Of a DNA stretch of 41,036 bases, positions 2,591-40,622 are shown piece after piece. Made by a program: the position numbers and the translations under genes. Position 1 is the stretch's first letter. Each line of letters opens with the position of its first letter. This stretch comes from a virus: positions 1-41,036 of the IMG/VR virus record IMGVR_UViG_3300005913_001274; one strand, 5' to 3'. Below the pieces are notes generated by a model. That model saw nothing but the letters and a program-made list of their open reading frames with translations, had not been told where the DNA came from and ran no database searches.

Positions 2591-2941
2591 ATGATTAAAA
2601 AAATGTACCCAAGGTGTCATCCATATTGGGTTACTGATGGTAAAAAAATAGAAAATACTGATGTGAGAGGAATTGCGTATGTTTCGACAGGGCATCTGTT
2701 ACCTTGTTGCTGGTGTGATTATGAAAGAGCTGATGTTGTTAATCAATATGCCGAATATGGATTGTTTAATGAAAATTTAAAGGTGGAAAACAACGGATCT
2801 ACATTGGATATCCTACGGTCCCCAGAATGGAAATCTTTTCATAAAATGTTGTTGGAAGAGCCAGAAAAGGCACCATTGCCTTGCAAAAAATATTGCTCAT
2901 TTATCCAAAATAAACAAGATGAAAGTAATTATTTTGACTGA
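2591..2941 (+). CDS. Stand-alone SPASM-like iron-sulfur domain protein
   Basis: 116 residues with a Cys arrangement like the SPASM auxiliary-cluster domain: C9 in YPRCHPYW, a C39-C40-x-C42 group in GHLLPCCWCDY, a segment similar to the family linker (LDILRSPEWKSFHKML), and a C-terminal C98-x3-C102. SPASM domains usually form the C-terminal half of radical SAM peptide-modifying enzymes and bind extra 4Fe-4S clusters. Here the domain is a gene of its own and lies upstream of the radical SAM core gene, overlapping it by 23 nt. The two probably work as one enzyme. The ATG at 2591 follows a stretch with little ribosome binding signal. The Cys pattern is read directly. The pairing is inferred. Confidence 0.7.
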   Translation: MIKKMYPRCHPYWVTDGKKIENTDVRGIAYVSTGHLLPCCWCDYERADVVNQYAEYGLFNENLKVENNGSTLDILRSPEWKSFHKMLLEEPEKAPLPCKKYCSFIQNKQDESNYFD

Positions 2942-3635
2942 TGATTTTGATTTACGTTATAGAGATTATATACAAGCAACGCATAGCACTAGGTGGAATA
3001 TTGAAACTGGTTTTAGATGTAGACTGCAGTGTCCATACTGTCAGAGACAACGCAAAGAGGCTAAACAAAAAATTAAAGCCGCAACTGAGATGTCAATTGA
3101 AACATTTTTAAAGCTAGGTGATTCATGTCGAGCACTTGTTTTATGTGGCCAGATAAGTGATCCGCTTTATCACCCAAAACTCATAGAAATATTAGAGTTA
3201 AAAAGTACTGAATTTTCTGATTTAAAATTAAGCATTAACACAAATGGTTCTGGAAAATCTTTAAATTGGTGGAAAAAAGCATATGCCGTATCCGATAAAA
3301 AGACTCAATGGGTTTTTGGTTTAGATGGCGCATCTCAGGAATCAGCAAATATTTATCGTATCGGTACTAATTTTGATAATGTTTTAGAAGCCATGAAATT
3401 AGGTGCTTCCCTTGGGGTTCAAATAAGTTGGCAATATATTTTATTTCAACACAATGAACATGAATTAGAAAAAGCTAGAGAAATAGCTAAGGCTCATAAA
3501 ATTGATTTTTCTTTACTATATTCTAATAGATGGCCAAAAGATCATCAAGGAATATTTAAATCCCAATTGCAAAATAAAACATTCAGCATTCACGCTGTTG
3601 ATAAGATTTACGAAACTACAAAGCATAAACGATGA
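2919..3635 (+). CDS. Radical SAM enzyme (core domain only)
   Basis: 238 residues. The signature C34-x3-C38-x2-C41 (CRLQCPYCQ) binds the 4Fe-4S cluster that cleaves S-adenosylmethionine. It is followed by a partial TIM-barrel pattern: LVLCGQISDPLYHP (the GGEP-like strand), LSINTNGSG, and WVFGLDGASQESANIYRIG, a typical radical SAM third-strand region with Asp and Gly. No C-terminal SPASM extension is present. The missing domain appears to be the gene just upstream. The reading frame overlaps that gene by 23 nt and the following glycosyltransferase by 4 nt (ATGA), so the three are probably translated together. The substrate is unknown. It could modify a peptide, a sugar or a lipid precursor. Confidence 0.85.
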   Translation: MKVIILTDDFDLRYRDYIQATHSTRWNIETGFRCRLQCPYCQRQRKEAKQKIKAATEMSIETFLKLGDSCRALVLCGQISDPLYHPKLIEILELKSTEFSDLKLSINTNGSGKSLNWWKKAYAVSDKKTQWVFGLDGASQESANIYRIGTNFDNVLEAMKLGASLGVQISWQYILFQHNEHELEKAREIAKAHKIDFSLLYSNRWPKDHQGIFKSQLQNKTFSIHAVDKIYETTKHKR

Positions 3636-5548: not shown

Positions 5549-6460
5549 ATGCAATTACTAAAAGATAATTATTTGCGAGGCAGCGGCCATGGAAATACCT
5601 GGCATGTTGAAATAGATCCACCCAAACGTAAAGTCAAATCATATTATGAGGAAACCGTGGAAACGGCAAAATACATGTATGAGAACAAGACCGGTGAGTT
5701 ATATTTACTATATAGTGGCGGTTTGGATAGTCAATATGTGTTCAATGTTTATCATCGGCTGGGGTTTAAATTTAAGCCGGTTATCATCAGACTTCAAGGT
5801 AAATACAGCGATCAAGATTATAATATACACGAGACACGGTATGCGTTTGATCATTGTCAATCACTAGGCATCACCCCAATTGAATACTGTTTGGATACTG
5901 ATAAATTTATCGAGAATGGCGAAGCCTTTGAGTTAGCAAAATCATTTAAATGTGGTAGTTGGTGGTTGACAAGTACAATGAAAGCAGCAAGTTGGTGCGA
6001 CGGCTTTGTCACTATGGGTAATGATCCGCCCTATCTAAAGTACTTAAAGGACAAAGATGAATGGGTTCTAGAAGAACTGGAATACGCTCATTCTATACTA
6101 AAATATTTTAGTATAAATAAGTTAGAAGGGTGTCCGTTCCTATTGAGTTATACTCCTGAGATGATGTTATCATTCTTATTAGATCCTCGTATACAAGACT
6201 TGGCTAATAAGAAATATCCAGGTAAACTAGGCACTAACTCCAGTAAATCATATGTATTTAATAACGGGTCTGATTTTAATATGGAAGGATATGATTTTAC
6301 AAAGGGTCGTAAAAAGGCAGCAGGTTTTGAGTTTGTGATTAATACACCATTAGCTGAACGCGAAACATTAAAACAAAATACAGAATGGCAAAAACAATAT
6401 CGTGGCATATACTATGAAAATTACCACCAAGTTGTAAAAAGACTATCCGTAAATCAATGA
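5549..6460 (+). CDS. PP-loop ATP pyrophosphatase, asparagine synthetase-like (copy 1)
   Basis: 303 residues. A PP-loop SGGLDS at residues 56-61 (LYLLYSGGLDSQYVF) marks the N-type ATP pyrophosphatase fold, whose members adenylate a carboxyl, amide or base before attack by an amine or sulfur. No glutaminase domain precedes it, so ammonia or an amine must come from elsewhere. Later sequence (GSWWLTSTMKAASW, FLLSYTPEMMLSFL) is like the C-terminal part of stand-alone asparagine-synthetase-like phage proteins. It is followed after 18 nt by a 2OG-Fe(II) oxygenase gene and then a desaturase. A second PP-loop gene lies in the minus arm of the island. It could make an amide or activate an acyl group. 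The reaction is unproven. Confidence 0.8.
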   Translation: MQLLKDNYLRGSGHGNTWHVEIDPPKRKVKSYYEETVETAKYMYENKTGELYLLYSGGLDSQYVFNVYHRLGFKFKPVIIRLQGKYSDQDYNIHETRYAFDHCQSLGITPIEYCLDTDKFIENGEAFELAKSFKCGSWWLTSTMKAASWCDGFVTMGNDPPYLKYLKDKDEWVLEELEYAHSILKYFSINKLEGCPFLLSYTPEMMLSFLLDPRIQDLANKKYPGKLGTNSSKSYVFNNGSDFNMEGYDFTKGRKKAAGFEFVINTPLAERETLKQNTEWQKQYRGIYYENYHQVVKRLSVNQ

Positions 6461-6478
6461 ATTATAAGAAAGACGCTA

Positions 6479-7087
6479 ATGAAACTATTGTATCGTAAAT
6501 TTATCATACCAAATTTCGGCCGTATTGTAAATGAGTTGTTAAATGTAGCTGAAAAAGCAAATTATACAGCAAGTAAAGAAGTTAAGTCTTGGGTCGTTCC
6601 AATTAATGATACGTTGAACGAATGTCCTGTGTTAAAAGATTTTTTACAATTAAGATTAAAAAAGTCAATACAACAAATTAAATTTTATTATTCTCCATCC
6701 AAGCAAGGGTTAGCGCCACACGTCGATGGATCAACTCCAAAAATACCATTCGGCATGAATTTTCCATTACTTAATACTAAAGAAACTGGTCATTATTGGT
6801 ATCACTGCCCACCGGAAAATACTAAAACAATACGAGCCAAATCTTACACAAATTCTGAGTTTACAGCCTTGGTCGATGAGGTTGATATACCCATTGATCG
6901 TGGCATTATGCCTATATTAGATACGTTAGAAATGCTAACTCCGGCAATTGTTAAAACAGATATAATGCATTCCGCATTTAACCCAAATGAGACCGGCCGA
7001 TTGATAGTGGCGTTTAGATGGGGTTTGGAAAATATTGATTATAGCGAACCAGATGACGTTATAGATCTAGAAGACTTATATGTTTAA
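6479..7087 (+). CDS. 2-oxoglutarate/Fe(II)-dependent oxygenase-like protein (copy 1)
   Basis: 202 residues of the double-stranded beta-helix type. The metal site is visible as H81-x-D83 in GLAPHVDG with a distal His in DIMHSAFN (H164), followed by an Arg (R174, in NETGRLIVAFRWG) in the position that binds 2-oxoglutarate. Such enzymes hydroxylate or otherwise oxidise an unactivated carbon, releasing CO2 and succinate. The end overlaps the start of the desaturase gene by 8 nt, so the two are probably coupled. RBS-like AAGA precedes ATG 6479. Marine T4-like phages often carry 2OG oxygenases of unknown target. The location here suggests a small-molecule or lipid substrate. Confidence 0.75.
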   Translation: MKLLYRKFIIPNFGRIVNELLNVAEKANYTASKEVKSWVVPINDTLNECPVLKDFLQLRLKKSIQQIKFYYSPSKQGLAPHVDGSTPKIPFGMNFPLLNTKETGHYWYHCPPENTKTIRAKSYTNSEFTALVDEVDIPIDRGIMPILDTLEMLTPAIVKTDIMHSAFNPNETGRLIVAFRWGLENIDYSEPDDVIDLEDLYV

Positions 7088-22470: not shown

Positions 22471-22513
22471 TATCAAAATAGCGGTGTACAAGATCGCTAT
22501 TTTGATATATAAT
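22471..22513 (+). promoter_or_regulatory. Early promoter of the nrd operon inside a terminator-like hairpin
   Basis: A perfect 13-bp inverted repeat (22471-22483 with 22495-22507, loop 11 nt) follows the late operon. The loop holds -35 TGTACA (22485-22490). After a 17-nt spacer comes -10 TATAAT (22508-22513), directly behind the stem. Transcripts arriving from the left can form the hairpin (its 3' arm ends TATTTTGATA, so it may terminate), while transcripts from the promoter cannot. Confidence 0.75.
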
Positions 22514-22571: not shown

Positions 22572-23714
22572 ATGGCAATTCATATATCAAGAGATAGAGA
22601 CGACTTATTAACAGACTACGCTATCAGCATGTTAAAAGATTTTTACATGCGTGACTATGAAAAATCACCACAAGAAGCATATGCAAGAGCAGCAAAAGCC
22701 TGGTCCACTTATAAAGGAACCATGGATGAAGCACTTGCAGCCCGTTTGTATGAATACGTTAGCAAAAAATGGTTTATGTTTGCTAGCCCGGTTCTTTCCA
22801 ATGCGCCTGATGGTGTGAAGAAGGACAAAGGTTTACCTATCTCTTGCTTTTTGACCTATGTGCCAGATTCGCTTGAAGGTCTTATTTCGCACTCATCCGA
22901 ATTGCGTTGGCTTTCAGTATTCGGTGGCGGAGTCGGTGGCCACTGGTCAGACGTACGTACAGTGACTGATAAAGCCCCTGGACCTATGCCATTTCTGCAC
23001 ACTGTTGATGCTGATATGATCGCTTACCGCCAGGGCAAGACACGCAAGGGATCATACGCGGCTTACATGGATGTATCGCATCCCGACATCGCAGAGTTCT
23101 TGAGCATGCGTATACCCACGGGTGACGTGCAGCGTAAGGCCTTAAACTTACATAATGCTATTAACATCACTGATTCTTTCATGGATGCCGTTATGAAAAA
23201 CGAGCAGTGGGACCTAAAGGATCCGGCATCAGGCATTGTAAGTGAAACACTGTCCGCACGTAAATTGTGGGAACGTATTATTGAAGTTCGTTTCCGTACA
23301 GGTGAGCCTTACCTTAATTTTATCGATCGTGCAAACGAATTCTTGCCACAACCACTCAAAGACAAAGGTCTTAAAATCAATGGTTCAAATCTTTGCTTAG
23401 TGGGTGAAACAAAAGTTAATTGTATAATTGATGGAGATGTTAGACCTGATGTAGATCTTGAAGATGCTGTCAAGCTCTTCCAAACAGGCAGTGATGTTAA
23501 GGTTTTATCATATAACCTTGAAACAGGTGAGGCATCATATAAAAATGTAACTAATGGCGCATTAATGAATGATTCAGCTGAATTGCTTCGTATCGAGGAT
23601 GCGGAAACCGGCCAATATATTGAATGCACACCAGAACATAAGGTTTATACAAAAAATAGAGGTTATGTTATGGCTATGGATTTGAATTCAGATGATGAAT
23701 TAATTTTTTCATAG
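22572..23714 (+). CDS. nrdA: Ribonucleotide reductase large subunit, N-terminal half, fused to split intein N-part
   Basis: 380 residues. Residues 1-274 are the N-terminal part of class I NrdA, the subunit that reduces ribonucleoside diphosphates: FASPVLSNA, GLPISCFLTYVPDSLEG (with a conserved redox Cys), GGGVGGHWSDVR, ALNLHNAINITD, GEPYLNFIDRAN. The extein ends ...INGSNL, exactly before the active-site Cys of the conserved NLCxEI motif. From codon 275 a split intein N-part begins (CLVGETKV), and the frame stops at 23714. The catalytic remainder is encoded at 24531-25703, so an active enzyme requires protein trans-splicing. AGAGAG lies upstream of ATG 22572. Confidence 0.95.
   Translation: MAIHISRDRDDLLTDYAISMLKDFYMRDYEKSPQEAYARAAKAWSTYKGTMDEALAARLYEYVSKKWFMFASPVLSNAPDGVKKDKGLPISCFLTYVPDSLEGLISHSSELRWLSVFGGGVGGHWSDVRTVTDKAPGPMPFLHTVDADMIAYRQGKTRKGSYAAYMDVSHPDIAEFLSMRIPTGDVQRKALNLHNAINITDSFMDAVMKNEQWDLKDPASGIVSETLSARKLWERIIEVRFRTGEPYLNFIDRANEFLPQPLKDKGLKINGSNLCLVGETKVNCIIDGDVRPDVDLEDAVKLFQTGSDVKVLSYNLETGEASYKNVTNGALMNDSAELLRIEDAETGQYIECTPEHKVYTKNRGYVMAMDLNSDDELIFS
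23394..23711 (+). other. Split intein N-terminal part (IntN, 106 residues)
   Basis: Begins with the nucleophile Cys (CLVGETKVNCIIDGDV, block A) and has block B near its end (IECTPEHKVYTKNRGYV with the TxxH), then a short tail DLNSDDELIFS and a stop. Sequence and length closely resemble, from memory, the NrdA-2 type split intein reported in fractured genes of marine metagenomes. It is followed by a homing endonuclease gene rather than by an endonuclease domain in frame. Confidence 0.9.
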
Positions 23715-23724
23715 AAATATTGTG

Positions 23725-23777
23725 CTAAGTGTATTTCAGAGAATGTTGTTTATATAAATAATATGAAATACACTTAG
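23725..23777 (+). promoter_or_regulatory. Hairpin with internal late promoter controlling the homing endonuclease
   Basis: A perfect 13-bp inverted repeat (CTAAGTGTATTTC at 23725-23737, GAAATACACTTAG at 23765-23777) encloses a 27-nt loop holding an exact late box TATAAATA (23753-23760). The ribosome binding site AGGA (23776-23779) begins in the 3' arm, 6 nt before ATG 23786. In transcripts from the nrd promoter the site would be folded away. A late transcript starting near 23766 lacks the 5' arm and leaves it free. This is the known logic of I-TevI expression in the T4 td intron. Confidence 0.85.
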
Positions 23778-23785
23778 GATTCAAT

Positions 23786-24448
23786 ATGAAATTTATCGTA
23801 TATAAATTAACATCTCAAACTACTAATAAAATTTACATTGGGTATTCTTCGAAAACATTATCAGAAAGAATTCATAAGCATTATTTAAATGCCAAAGCGG
23901 GAGCTGAAACTCATTTGTATAGAGCAATAAGAAAATATGGCATTGATAATTTTACATTTAGTGTAATATGGTCTGGTAGTTGTCAATTGAAAGCAATTGA
24001 GATGGAAAAATATTATATCAAAAAGTATGATACATTTGCTGAAGGATATAATATGACAATGGGTGGTGATGGTGGTATTACAATAACCGAATCCAATAGA
24101 GGAACTTGGCTGGTAAATAAATCAAAGTCGGTTTCTGGTAAATCAAATCCTAGGTACATTGATGTCAATGATGAGGATATTTTAGAAAAAGCCTATGATT
24201 TTTATTTGGAAAATGGTATGTTGGCACTATCAACCTGGTTAAAATTTAGTTCTTTAAATTATGGATTTCCAAGAACATACACTAATTTTAGATTTAAAAA
24301 TTATGGTGGTTCCCGAAATGGGTTTAAAATTGCAATGAAAAAAATATATGGATTATGTGATGAGGATTTTAAATATAGTAGAACAAATGAACACAAACAA
24401 AAATTATCAGAATCTATTAGGAAAATGAATGACATTAAAAATATCTAA
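23786..24448 (+). CDS. GIY-YIG homing endonuclease inserted between the nrdA halves
   Basis: 220 residues. The N-terminal GIY-YIG nuclease domain is seen as VYKLTSQTTNKIYIGYSS (VY...YIG spacing), then R28 in LSERIHKH and E72 (IEMEKYYIKKY) in catalytic positions, as in I-TevI-like enzymes. The C-terminal part has NUMOD-like DNA-binding repeats (EHKQKLSESIRKM). Codons are very AT-rich compared with the nrdA halves. It lies between IntN and IntC as a gene of its own, overlaps the IntC start by 20 nt, and has its own hairpin-gated late promoter. It probably cleaves intein-less nrdA alleles to spread the insertion. Confidence 0.9.
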   Translation: MKFIVYKLTSQTTNKIYIGYSSKTLSERIHKHYLNAKAGAETHLYRAIRKYGIDNFTFSVIWSGSCQLKAIEMEKYYIKKYDTFAEGYNMTMGGDGGITITESNRGTWLVNKSKSVSGKSNPRYIDVNDEDILEKAYDFYLENGMLALSTWLKFSSLNYGFPRTYTNFRFKNYGGSRNGFKIAMKKIYGLCDEDFKYSRTNEHKQKLSESIRKMNDIKNI

Positions 24449-24530
24449 AGTAACCGGCACAAAATCGGTTTATGACATAACAGTTCAAGAGAATCATAAT
24501 TTTTATGCAAATAATATTCTCGTTTCGAAT
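24429..24530 (+). other. Split intein C-terminal part (IntC, 34 residues)
   Basis: Carries block F (SVYDITVQENHNFYANN) and block G (ILVSN followed by Cys), with the terminal Asn needed for cyclisation and the preceding Ser where many inteins have His. It starts with its own ATG inside the end of the homing endonuclease gene. It pairs with the N-part at 23394-23711. Confidence 0.9.
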
Positions 24531-25703
24531 TGTAATGAAATTCATTTACCGACCAGTGCAGATCGCACTGCTGTTTGTTGCCTCTCATCTCTTAACTTGG
24601 AGTACTATGAGGATTGGAAAAATACTACCATTGTTGAAGATATCATTACTATGCTCGACAATGTCCTTGAGTATTTTATTGAAAATGCACCAGATGTTAT
24701 TAGCCGAGCCAAGTATTCAGCTTCACGCGAAAGATCAATTGGTCTAGGCGCAATGGGTTTCCATTCACTATTGCAGAAGCAAGATGTGGCCTGGGAATCT
24801 GAATTGGCCCGGGAGATTAACAATGTTGTGTTTAAACACATTAATGAGAAGGCTGTGGCACACACTAAACGATTGGCCGTGGAGAGGGGTGAATACCTCG
24901 ACGGTATCGGTTCTGGCCGCCGGAATAGCCACTTACTTGCGATTGCTCCTAATGCTTCTAGTGGTGTTATCCTTGCTACAAGTCCTTCCATTGAGCCTTT
25001 AAAGGCCAACGCATATACACATCGTACTCGCGCTGGTTCATTCTTGGTTAAAAATGTTTACCTTCAAGAAGTGCTGACTCGGCATGGTATTAACAATGAA
25101 TCGACTTGGACATCTATTATTACCAATCGTGGTTCTGTGCAACACTTGCCAAACTTAACTGAGGGTGAGAAAGCTATCTTTAAGACTGCACAAGAGTTGG
25201 ATCAAACTTGGGTTGTTCAACACGCGGTTGACCGACAAAAATATATTTGCCAAGGACAATCTGTTAACTTGTTCTTCCCATCTGGTGTTGAAAAATCATA
25301 TGTGAACAAGGTACATATTAAAGCTTGGAAAGAAGGATTAAAGGGTTTATATTACCTACGTACAGAGTCAAAAGCTCGTGCAGAAAACGTATCCGAAAAA
25401 GTGGAACGTGTTGCACTACAAGATGACAAACGTTCAATTGTTTACGGCAAAAGCAATTGCCCATGGTGTGCTCGAGCAAAAGAAGAGTTAGAACTTCGCA
25501 GTATACCGTTTGATTATATTGACTTAAAAGAGTTTGGCAAAACGGCAAAAGAGGTCACCGGCCGCGATGTAAAAACAGTACCGCAAATTTATATTGAAGG
25601 CGTGTACGTTGGTGGTTATGAACAACTAATGGAACACTTAAACAACACAACGCCAGAACTTATTGCCGCCGATGGTGATGAGTGCCGCGCCTGTGAAGGT
25701 TAA
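24429..25703 (+). CDS. nrdA: Split intein C-part fused to NrdA C-terminal half with glutaredoxin domain
   Basis: 424 residues. Residues 1-34 are the intein C-part (SVYDITVQENHNFYANNILV, then SN). Cys35 is both the +1 splicing nucleophile and the NrdA active-site Cys (CNEIHLPT). The NrdA core continues with CCLSSLNLE, SIGLGAMGFHSLLQ, NASSGVILATSPSIEP and the radical-pathway tyrosines in LKGLYYLRTES. At about 335-410 follows a glutaredoxin domain (IVYGKSNCPWCARAKEEL with CPWC, later TVPQIYIEGVYVGGYEQLM), and then a NrdA-type C-terminal Cys pair (DECRAC). The glutaredoxin thus lies between the reductase core and its swinging tail and could re-reduce it directly. It overlaps the endonuclease gene by 20 nt. 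Confidence 0.93.
   Translation: MTLKISKVTGTKSVYDITVQENHNFYANNILVSNCNEIHLPTSADRTAVCCLSSLNLEYYEDWKNTTIVEDIITMLDNVLEYFIENAPDVISRAKYSASRERSIGLGAMGFHSLLQKQDVAWESELAREINNVVFKHINEKAVAHTKRLAVERGEYLDGIGSGRRNSHLLAIAPNASSGVILATSPSIEPLKANAYTHRTRAGSFLVKNVYLQEVLTRHGINNESTWTSIITNRGSVQHLPNLTEGEKAIFKTAQELDQTWVVQHAVDRQKYICQGQSVNLFFPSGVEKSYVNKVHIKAWKEGLKGLYYLRTESKARAENVSEKVERVALQDDKRSIVYGKSNCPWCARAKEELELRSIPFDYIDLKEFGKTAKEVTGRDVKTVPQIYIEGVYVGGYEQLMEHLNNTTPELIAADGDECRACEG
25431..25650 (+). other. Glutaredoxin domain within the NrdA C-half
   Basis: CPWC active site encoded at 25458-25469, the cis-Pro segment TVPQIYI, and the GG-x-x-x-L glutathione-side motif (VGGYEQLMEHL). About 70 residues, a complete glutaredoxin. 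Domain boundaries are approximate. Confidence 0.9.
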
Positions 25704-25728: not shown

Positions 25729-26688
25729 ATGTCACTATTTAAACTATCAACAACATATAAACCGTTCCAATATCCTTGGGCTGTAGAATTGGCAAAGAAA
25801 CATGAAGAAATCCATTGGGTTGAAGATGAAGCAGAACTATCAGAAGACGTTCAGGACTGGCGCACTAAACTTTCTGCTGATGAAAAGGAATTTATCACTC
25901 AGGTTCTACGTCTCTTTACTCAATCCGATGTCCAGGTTGGTGAAAACTATCATGAGTTCTTAATTCCTAAATTTAAGAATAACGAAGTTCGGAATATGCT
26001 TTCGTCCTTTGCTGCACGTGAAACAGTACACCAACGTGCGTATGCCCTATTGAATGATACACTTGGTTTGCCTGATGATGAATTCTTTAAGTTCTTAGAA
26101 TACAAAGAAATGGCAGATAAAATTGAGTTTATGAAAGAAGGTAAGACAAACACTCAGTCAGATTTGGCTCTCGTCTTAGCACAATCCGTGTTCAACGAAG
26201 GCATGTCATTGTTCTCATCATTTGTGATGTTGTTAAACTTTCAACGTTTCGGTAAAATGAAAGGTATGGGTACTATCGTCGAATGGTCAATTCGTGATGA
26301 GACAATTCACGTACAAGGCAATGCAAAGTTATTCCGCACACTATGTGATGAGCATCCAAAGATTGTAAATGATGAATTAAAATCAAAAATCTATGAGATG
26401 GCAAAAACTGCCGTTACATTAGAAGATAAATTTATTAAACTAGCATTCAACGGCAGTGAGGTGCAAGGTCTAACGCGCAGCGATGTGGAATCATATGTAC
26501 GTTACATTGCAGATAGACGTTTGTTACAGCTTGGTTTAAAACCAAAATTTAAGGTAAAAGACAATCCACTGCCGTGGTTGGATTGGGTATTAAATGGCGC
26601 TTCTCATGATAACTTCTTTGAGAAGCGTGTCACTGAATACTCTGCTGCAGGTATGGAAGGCGACTGGGGCTGGGAGAAAGCTGCATGA
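25729..26688 (+). CDS. nrdB: Ribonucleotide reductase small subunit
   Basis: 319 residues, class Ia NrdB. The di-iron and radical residues are visible: ARETVHQRAY has the E-x-x-H pair and the Tyr four residues on that carries the radical, FNEGMSLFSSF gives another Glu ligand, and IRDETIHVQG gives the last E-x-x-H. The start MSLFKLSTTYKPFQYPWAV at ATG 25729 is preferred over an ATG 66 nt upstream inside nrdA. AAGAAAG is the ribosome binding site. It delivers the radical to NrdA for dNTP production. The stop overlaps the next small gene (ATGA). Confidence 0.95.
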   Translation: MSLFKLSTTYKPFQYPWAVELAKKHEEIHWVEDEAELSEDVQDWRTKLSADEKEFITQVLRLFTQSDVQVGENYHEFLIPKFKNNEVRNMLSSFAARETVHQRAYALLNDTLGLPDDEFFKFLEYKEMADKIEFMKEGKTNTQSDLALVLAQSVFNEGMSLFSSFVMLLNFQRFGKMKGMGTIVEWSIRDETIHVQGNAKLFRTLCDEHPKIVNDELKSKIYEMAKTAVTLEDKFIKLAFNGSEVQGLTRSDVESYVRYIADRRLLQLGLKPKFKVKDNPLPWLDWVLNGASHDNFFEKRVTEYSAAGMEGDWGWEKAA

Positions 26689-29168: not shown

Positions 29169-29220
29169 TTTACAAGCCTTGTGTTTTATGGTATAATGAC
29201 TGTACAACACAAGGCTTTTT
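29169..29220 (+). promoter_or_regulatory. Early promoter nested in a terminator hairpin
   Basis: -35 TTTACA (29169-29174), 17-nt spacer, -10 TATAAT (29192-29197). A perfect 12-bp inverted repeat (29174-29185 with 29206-29217) encloses the -10 in its 20-nt loop and is followed by a T-run (29216-29220), so readthrough from the left should end here. A transcript started at about 29204 contains only the 3' arm and escapes. AAGG in that arm is the only ribosome binding candidate for the next gene. Confidence 0.85.
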
Positions 29221-29225
29221 ATATT

Positions 29226-29792
29226 ATGAATGTTTTTATATTAGATAATGATCCAATCATTGCAGCACAGCTACAGTGTGACAAGCATGTAGTAAAAATG
29301 ATTGTAGAATCTGCACAAATGCTTTCAACAGCACATCGCATGCTAGATGGTGTCATGTCCTTTGGTCCGTCTAAATCTGGCAAACGCACCGTTGCACAAT
29401 ACTGCCTCTTAGATGCTGATATGGACAGCACATTGTATAAAGTCGTTCACGCTAGTCATCCATGCACCAAATGGACTATGCTGAGTGCTTGTAACTACGA
29501 ATGGCACTATCAACATTTCATTGCTCTTTGCGATGAGTACAAGTATAGATACAACAGACAGCATAGCACAGATGCGTTATTACGGACAAAGTTAAAGCAG
29601 CACCCTAGGAATATTCCTAAACAAGGCTTAACATTATTTCCCCTTGCTATGAAGTCAAACCCAGAGTGCATGTTCGAAGATGACCCAGTAAAGTCATATC
29701 GCATGTTTTATCAGACAAAGCAAGATCGGTTTAAAATGACTTGGTCTAAACGTAATGTTCCGGAGTGGTTTCATGCCAACATATACAATTAA
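29226..29792 (+). CDS. Conserved phage protein of unknown function
   Basis: 188 residues. MNVFILDNDPIIAAQLQCDK, then HVVKMIVESAQMLSTAHRML and HPCTKWTMLSACNYEWHYQH, is a pattern I recall in many marine T4-like phages, always unannotated. Conserved His, Cys and Trp residues suggest an enzyme or metal binder but no family is certain. The ATG at 29226 is right because the promoter starts at about 29204, downstream of the earlier in-frame ATG at 29181. The end overlaps the next gene by 20 nt. Confidence 0.8.
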   Translation: MNVFILDNDPIIAAQLQCDKHVVKMIVESAQMLSTAHRMLDGVMSFGPSKSGKRTVAQYCLLDADMDSTLYKVVHASHPCTKWTMLSACNYEWHYQHFIALCDEYKYRYNRQHSTDALLRTKLKQHPRNIPKQGLTLFPLAMKSNPECMFEDDPVKSYRMFYQTKQDRFKMTWSKRNVPEWFHANIYN

Positions 29793-40475: not shown

Positions 40476-40552
40476 GCGTCCTTAGCTCAGTCGGATAGAG
40501 CAACGCCCTTCTAAGGCGTTGGTCGGGAGTTCGAATCTCTCAGGACGCACCA
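40476..40552 (+). tRNA. tRNA-Arg (anticodon TCT)
   Basis: A complete cloverleaf with encoded CCA. Acceptor GCGTCCT / AGGACGC, D stem GCTC / GAGC, anticodon stem ACGCC / GGCGT around loop CTTCTAA (anticodon TCT, reading AGA/AGG), T arm GGGAG-TTCGAAT-CTCTC. AGA fits the AT-rich codon use. It lies 29 nt after the DsbA-like gene and may share its transcript. A large hairpin follows. Confidence 0.96.
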
Positions 40553-40558
40553 TTTAAG

Positions 40559-40622
40559 TTTATTTACTCAAGATCATCAGAACCATATTGGAGAGTGTTT
40601 CTGATGATCTTGAGTAAATAAA
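40559..40622 (+). terminator. Very long perfect hairpin after tRNA-Arg
   Basis: A perfect 24-bp inverted repeat (40559-40582 with 40599-40622) with a 16-nt loop, followed by AATTTTAG. It is far longer than needed for termination. It may be an RNA processing site, a terminator or a remnant of an element. It starts 7 nt after the tRNA CCA end. Confidence 0.6.

Follow-up and report, generated by a model that had tools for sequence, protein, structure and literature searches.

A probable late gate, with a homing-site look-alike, in the leader of a GIY-YIG endonuclease gene at a split-intein nrdA locus

The leader of a GIY-YIG homing endonuclease gene, located within a phage nrdA gene broken by a split intein, is probably a late gate of the I-TevI type, with autorepression a probable part of the control. 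The repeat, its fold, its recurrence in related leaders, compensatory change in its arms and a family-wide look-alike of the target were all computed; from these we infer an early and a late transcript, the position of the late start, a block to translation, binding and repression.

The window (the whole stretch of DNA analysed, 41,036 nt), judged from its sequence, comes from a phage of T4 type. A split intein breaks its nrdA gene, and a GIY-YIG endonuclease gene lies between the two halves. All features are on the + strand unless stated. The N-terminal half of nrdA together with the N-terminal split-intein half (22572-23714) matches ribonucleotide reductase domains in Pfam and, weakly, HINT; the intein starts at 23394 within this ORF, interrupting NrdA at SNL|C, and the C-extein restarts at CNEIHLPTS. 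A candidate early (sigma-70-like) promoter, TGTACA-17-TATAAT, lies 5' of nrdA at 22485-22513 (consensus scan only, 10/12). The 61-nt leader stretch follows the nrdA-N/intein-N stop codon (23714) and precedes the ATG of the endonuclease gene (23786-24448; 220 aa; Pfam PF01541, E=2.6e-10). In a structure search the endonuclease model matched 1mk0, the catalytic domain of I-TevI, with a TM score of 0.83 normalised to target length, and this was the only part matched: the C-terminal part gave no match to a known fold. The C-terminal split-intein half, the C half of nrdA and a glutaredoxin domain follow at 24429-25703 (C-extein from 24531), the start at 24429 overlapping the end of the endonuclease gene, and the ribosome site of the nrdA C half (TTAGGA, 24417-24422) lies within the endonuclease ORF. 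The next gene is nrdB (25729-26688).

The best relatives are Phage C48C1 (Kyanoviridae; NrdB 83% identical), the closest complete one, and the Melnitz methylophages; nrdA of C48C1 is a single ORF, and C48C1 thus represents the empty site. L001 holds an identical copy of the locus. L002 (2881-2882) is a natural allele from which window positions 23717-24209 are missing: hairpin, promoter and endonuclease catalytic domain are gone, while both nrdA halves and the ribosome site of the C half are kept. In nearly all of the 18 distinct loci compared, intein halves flank the endonuclease and share one insertion site, NL|C...N|C; in four of the loci the script failed to locate the intein-N start. Encoding by a group I intron was not found: the endonuclease sits between split-intein halves.

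The hairpin arms, CTAAGTGTATTTCA (23725-23738) and TGAAATACACTTAG (23764-23777), pair perfectly over 14 bp around a 25-nt loop. A preliminary description of this DNA had rightly called the repeat perfect, giving its length as 13 bp, and was correct in placing an exact TATAAATA inside it (23753-23760) and the beginning of the AGGA in the 3' arm: the ribosome-binding site TTAGGA (23774-23779) lies partly within that arm, the AGGA occupying 23776-23779, so that its first two bases are paired positions of the arm. When arms of 14 bp or more and loops of at most 40 nt are required, the 41-kb window has two inverted repeats and eight dinucleotide shuffles have none. The claim that read-through RNA hides the ribosome site agrees with the predicted folds. 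Read-through RNA has a predicted folding energy of -25.7 kcal/mol (z between -4.3 and -4.9; 0 of 200 shuffles equally stable), and opening the ribosome footprint on it is predicted to cost approximately 16-17 kcal/mol, versus approximately 4-7 kcal/mol on an RNA starting at 23766, which shows no special folding (z +0.2). In the standard comparison of opening cost the values are 16.6 (read-through) and 4.6 (late), with a difference of 8-16 depending on RNA length. A ribosome terminating at 23714 could melt the base of the stem, which is a point against the late gate.

An intrinsic terminator was ruled out as an identity for the stem because no T-run follows it. Positions 23763-23777, in the 3' arm, contain a mini-ORF, ATGAAATACACTTAG (MKYT*), whose start resembles that of the endonuclease gene in L205, ATGAAATACAC, and which is possibly a shifted former start codon. 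Two further repeats were seen in the window. A 12-bp perfect hairpin at 29174-29217, just before the ORF at 29226, is followed by a T-run, and its loop holds an extended -10 (TATGGTATAAT); it resembles a terminator whose loop contains an early promoter. A 24-bp perfect inverted repeat (40559-40622) lies directly 3' of tRNA-Arg (40476-40552).

The loop motif TATAAATA reads as a T4-type late promoter with a predicted start near 23766. Within the window it shows no enrichment over a reversed control, and after this window-only comparison gave nothing its placement was assessed in C48C1, which encodes a T4 late sigma and a late-promoter co-activator. There the motif occurs 23 times, 17 of these at most 160 nt upstream of a CDS start, and its sites precede genes for sheath, tube, neck, baseplate and DNA-end protector; two anagram motifs have four copies each, with 1 and 0 in upstream position. 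By motif position only, a late RNA starting near 23766 would lack the 5' arm, as the preliminary description had proposed.

Transcripts from the early promoter reading through nrdA would carry the 14-bp hairpin, which would make the ribosome site and the start region inaccessible; the endonuclease would then not be made while both NrdA halves are, the nrdA C half being served by the separate ribosome site that lies within the endonuclease ORF. Later, a gp55-type late RNA polymerase would initiate at the loop promoter, and the resulting RNA, free of the 5' arm, would allow translation of the endonuclease. Since in this endonuclease family the leader DNA also imitates the nrdA target (codons E-I-x-L-P-T), the promoter region is probably bound by the very protein it expresses, which, by analogy with I-TevI, probably turns itself down in this way.

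Endonuclease searches led to 121 distinct GIY-YIG leaders (leaders of more than 75% identity merged; start codons and control genes chosen by script), 18 of which follow an intein-N half. Exceptionally stable leader hairpins occur in 9 of these 18, in 8 of the 103 other GIY-YIG leaders and in 18 of 603 control phage genes (3%): for split-intein leaders P=5e-9 against control genes and P=6e-5 against other GIY-YIG leaders, values that overstate independence because leaders are related by descent. Among leaders bearing ATAAATA, a gating hairpin of at least 8 bp is present in 15 of 33 from GIY-YIG genes (2.6 expected from shuffles) and in 9 of 57 from control genes, some of these being late genes or endonucleases. 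The read-through/late difference for ATAAATA leaders has a median of 9.25 in the split-intein group (n=8) versus 2.75 in controls (n=50; P=0.001), with 10 of the 50 controls above 8.

Compensatory change in the arms, which the preliminary description had named as strong support, is evident in homologous loci. The stems of the window, of Klebsiella jumbo phage KP13-7 (L051) and of L205 keep 13-14 pairs despite six two-sided changes, with additionally one pair inserted or lost, and L125, L129 and L130 contribute two further two-sided changes; the stems cannot be aligned by MAFFT, and the pairs come from hand-aligned arms, that is, from a structural alignment biased towards pairing. In KP13-7 the endonuclease likewise lies between nrdA intein halves, its hairpin (GGTAGTGTGATTTC / GAAATCACACTACC) enclosing AATAAATA. 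The hairpin of L205 was missed by a leader cut of 75-80 nt and is seen with more upstream sequence. The hairpin is absent from the leaders of L055-L060, L062 and L157. The form also varies, the hairpin hiding the start codon in L061, the ribosome site lying in the loop in L066, and the leader pairing with the coding region in L068 and L069. Full sequestration is not general, because the stems of L051, L125 and L205 stop a few bases upstream of the ribosome site.

Perfect repeats around (T)ATAAATA were seen upstream of the starts of other genes (L033 589, L035 1434, L034 2951, L066 2202): an endonuclease-like ORF (17-bp repeat), two short ORFs whose function is not known and, as in T4 gene e, an endolysin-like gene. 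In KP13-7 (L051 1647-7177) nrdA is apparently interrupted both by two split inteins, of which the second carries an HNH-like ORF (5668-6639), and by an intron-like insert whose ORF (2640-3026) is likewise HNH-like.

The preliminary description missed a further property of the arms: they look like the homing site. When the window's own site is left out of the PWM, the top hit in the window is GAAATTCATTTACCGAC (24537-24553; E-I-H-L-P-T), the part of the predicted homing site that lies in the C-extein. A forward look-alike, GAAATACACTTAG (23765-23777), makes up most of the 3' arm and is identical at 10 of 13 positions to the first C-extein codons, GAAATTCATTTAC, of the window's own site at 24537; an inverted copy, GAAATACACTTAGCACA, lies at 23721-23737 on the - strand. 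The look-alike in the window is modest (P=0.01, 10/13 bp), and a single-lineage local alignment of leader and homing site is not significant for the window alone; since the window copies rank 17-23 of approximately 82,000 positions, the operator reading draws on the endonuclease family. The only input to the profile was the site at which the intein is inserted, nrdA codons E-I-x-L-P-T. Against the leaders it gives a Stouffer value of 10.6, and z 12.4 when applied leave-one-out to both strands, in which form P is at most 0.05 in 14 of 18 lineages. Neighbouring C-extein segments used as profiles give 0.8 and -1.0 in the same leaders, and the mean z across 250 control genes is approximately 0. 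Look-alikes occur in either orientation, mostly adjoin the late promoter, form both hairpin arms in several phages, and translate as E-I-T-L-P, E-I-H-L-S, E-I-L-H-P and similar; where the locus spans 5-11 kb, the copies in the leader are mostly among its top three hits (ranks 1-3). Free-standing nrdA endonucleases, which are outside the profile set, also have copies, reading E-I-L-L-P-(T), in one orientation or the other; these lie a short distance from the start, in most cases with an ATAAATA nearby, and agree at 10-13 of 17 positions with the endonucleases' own intact nrdA site. Occurrence of the look-alike across the endonuclease family thus predicts autorepression like that of I-TevI.

In L143, L138, L153, L154 and L161, nrdA is split shortly after EILLPT: the N piece has an intein-like tail (GEHKVLLKDGSRKKVREL...) and the C piece, where seen, begins MKIVKKECTRKVPS-IALC, without the HN/C end of an intein. 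These are possibly cases of a decayed intein with pieces working unspliced.

Resemblance of the arms to the target raises the question of whether the repeat is selected as DNA, two inverted binding sites flanking the late promoter for autorepression and the RNA hairpin being a by-product. Both arms are indeed like the homing site in the window, L051, L205, L125, L129 and L068; two inverted look-alikes pair imperfectly in L124 and L136; and other lineages have one copy, forward (L138, L153, L154) or inverted (L137, L143, L148, L161, L167). We nevertheless consider this account unlikely. The arms agree with each other at 13/13, 14/14 and 14/14 positions versus 10, 8 and 9 with the target, with the same deviations in both arms, and this closer match speaks for pairing having been selected in addition to target mimicry; moreover, the hairpins of L136, L061 and L066 cover the start region with no intact second look-alike as partner. 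The two layers separate in the other direction as well, L055-L060, L062 and L080 having a look-alike and no hairpin.

The hairpin might conceivably serve instead in the processing or stability of the nrdA N-half message at its 3' end, the overlap with promoter and ribosome site then being due to chance. The stem does start a few to approximately 11 nt past the N-half stop codon in the window, L051, L125 and L205; yet there is no T-run and hence no intrinsic terminator, gating geometry among ATAAATA-bearing leaders is several-fold over shuffles, and in other lineages the start codon or ribosome site is itself in the stem or loop, all of which make such a role very improbable. Least credible of all is that repeat and look-alike are now functionless relics of endonuclease entry into nrdA: the look-alike in the window is weaker than those of its relatives and L062 and L055-L060 retain it without a hairpin, but the motif persists in otherwise unalignable leaders, also inverted and outside nrdA, and pairing survives changes on both sides.

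Homing endonucleases need to avoid damage to the host gene. With the I-TevI-type late gate as the preferred reading, a wider proposal, for and against which we see about equal grounds, is that nrdA-targeting GIY-YIG endonucleases, split-intein-borne and free-standing alike, make dual use of an imitation, located at the late promoter, of their own homing half-site: it would be the operator, and inverted pairs of it would also fold in read-through RNA and hide the start region. If so, one sequence would combine target mimicry, autorepression and timing, and the leader would be a text-readable predictor of the endonuclease target. A different GIY-YIG family would then have arrived anew at the I-TevI solution (late timing plus look-alike self-repression), with both control layers packed in one inverted repeat, at split-intein and at intergenic nrdA sites. 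The leaders would also allow testing of whether timing, target mimicry or both are selected.

Dassa et al. reportedly described, in 2009, fractured genes with split inteins; the present locus is similar in that an intein splits nrdA and an endonuclease gene is enclosed by the two intein halves. A hairpin combined with a late promoter has been described for I-TevI, I-TevII, I-TevIII, segB and Aeh1 mobE (PMC2988022), which bears out the preliminary description as to the control of I-TevI. That description also holds in assigning the endonuclease to a split-intein locus and not an intron; such logic outside introns is not new, being described for T4 segB and Aeh1 mobE (PMC2988022). The window shares with I-TevI a GIY-YIG catalytic domain, a read-through hairpin and a predicted late RNA without the 5' arm; across the endonuclease family, a look-alike near the promoter of the homing site's downstream half is a further parallel. 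The I-TevI operator matches its homing site at 15 of 20 positions, and binding has been shown (PMC2988022). The present locus differs in that I-TevI is encoded in the T4 td intron and the window endonuclease has no intron, and in that the look-alike is here a hairpin arm, often present as two inverted copies, one downstream of the promoter. The zinc finger and DNA-binding domain of I-TevI are absent from the window protein by Pfam, T4 I-TevI scoring both in the same run. Because this module is lacking, the model matches the catalytic domain only and the leader mimics the family's own target, the regulation was not simply carried with the I-TevI gene: of the two origins offered in the preliminary description, convergence or carriage with the endonuclease gene, carriage from I-TevI is unlikely.

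The mobE gene of Aeromonas phage Aeh1 is similar in being a free-standing endonuclease gene between nrdA halves, with a 12-13-bp hairpin and a TAAATA late-promoter-like site directly 5' of the ATG (PMC2988022), and differs in being HNH where the window protein is GIY-YIG; the Aeh1 nrdA halves arise from mobE insertion, and the gene functions without a self-splicing intron (PMC3653736). The Aeh1 mobE and T4 I-TevI leaders were re-read as positive controls, the mobE hairpin being seen directly. In T4 genes e, soc and 49 a late promoter lies inside a hairpin that hides the ribosome site (PMC3014915), and re-reading of the gene 49 leader gave the same arrangement; these are not homing endonucleases, and a target look-alike is not expected. 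In the literature searched we found no description of late-gate control at a split-intein locus, and two-layer control by hairpin and look-alike is described there for T4 intron endonucleases. The same design being documented for I-TevI and Aeh1 mobE, the window is thus a new instance of a known control; what is new is the predicted look-alike of the intein insertion site in these endonuclease leaders.
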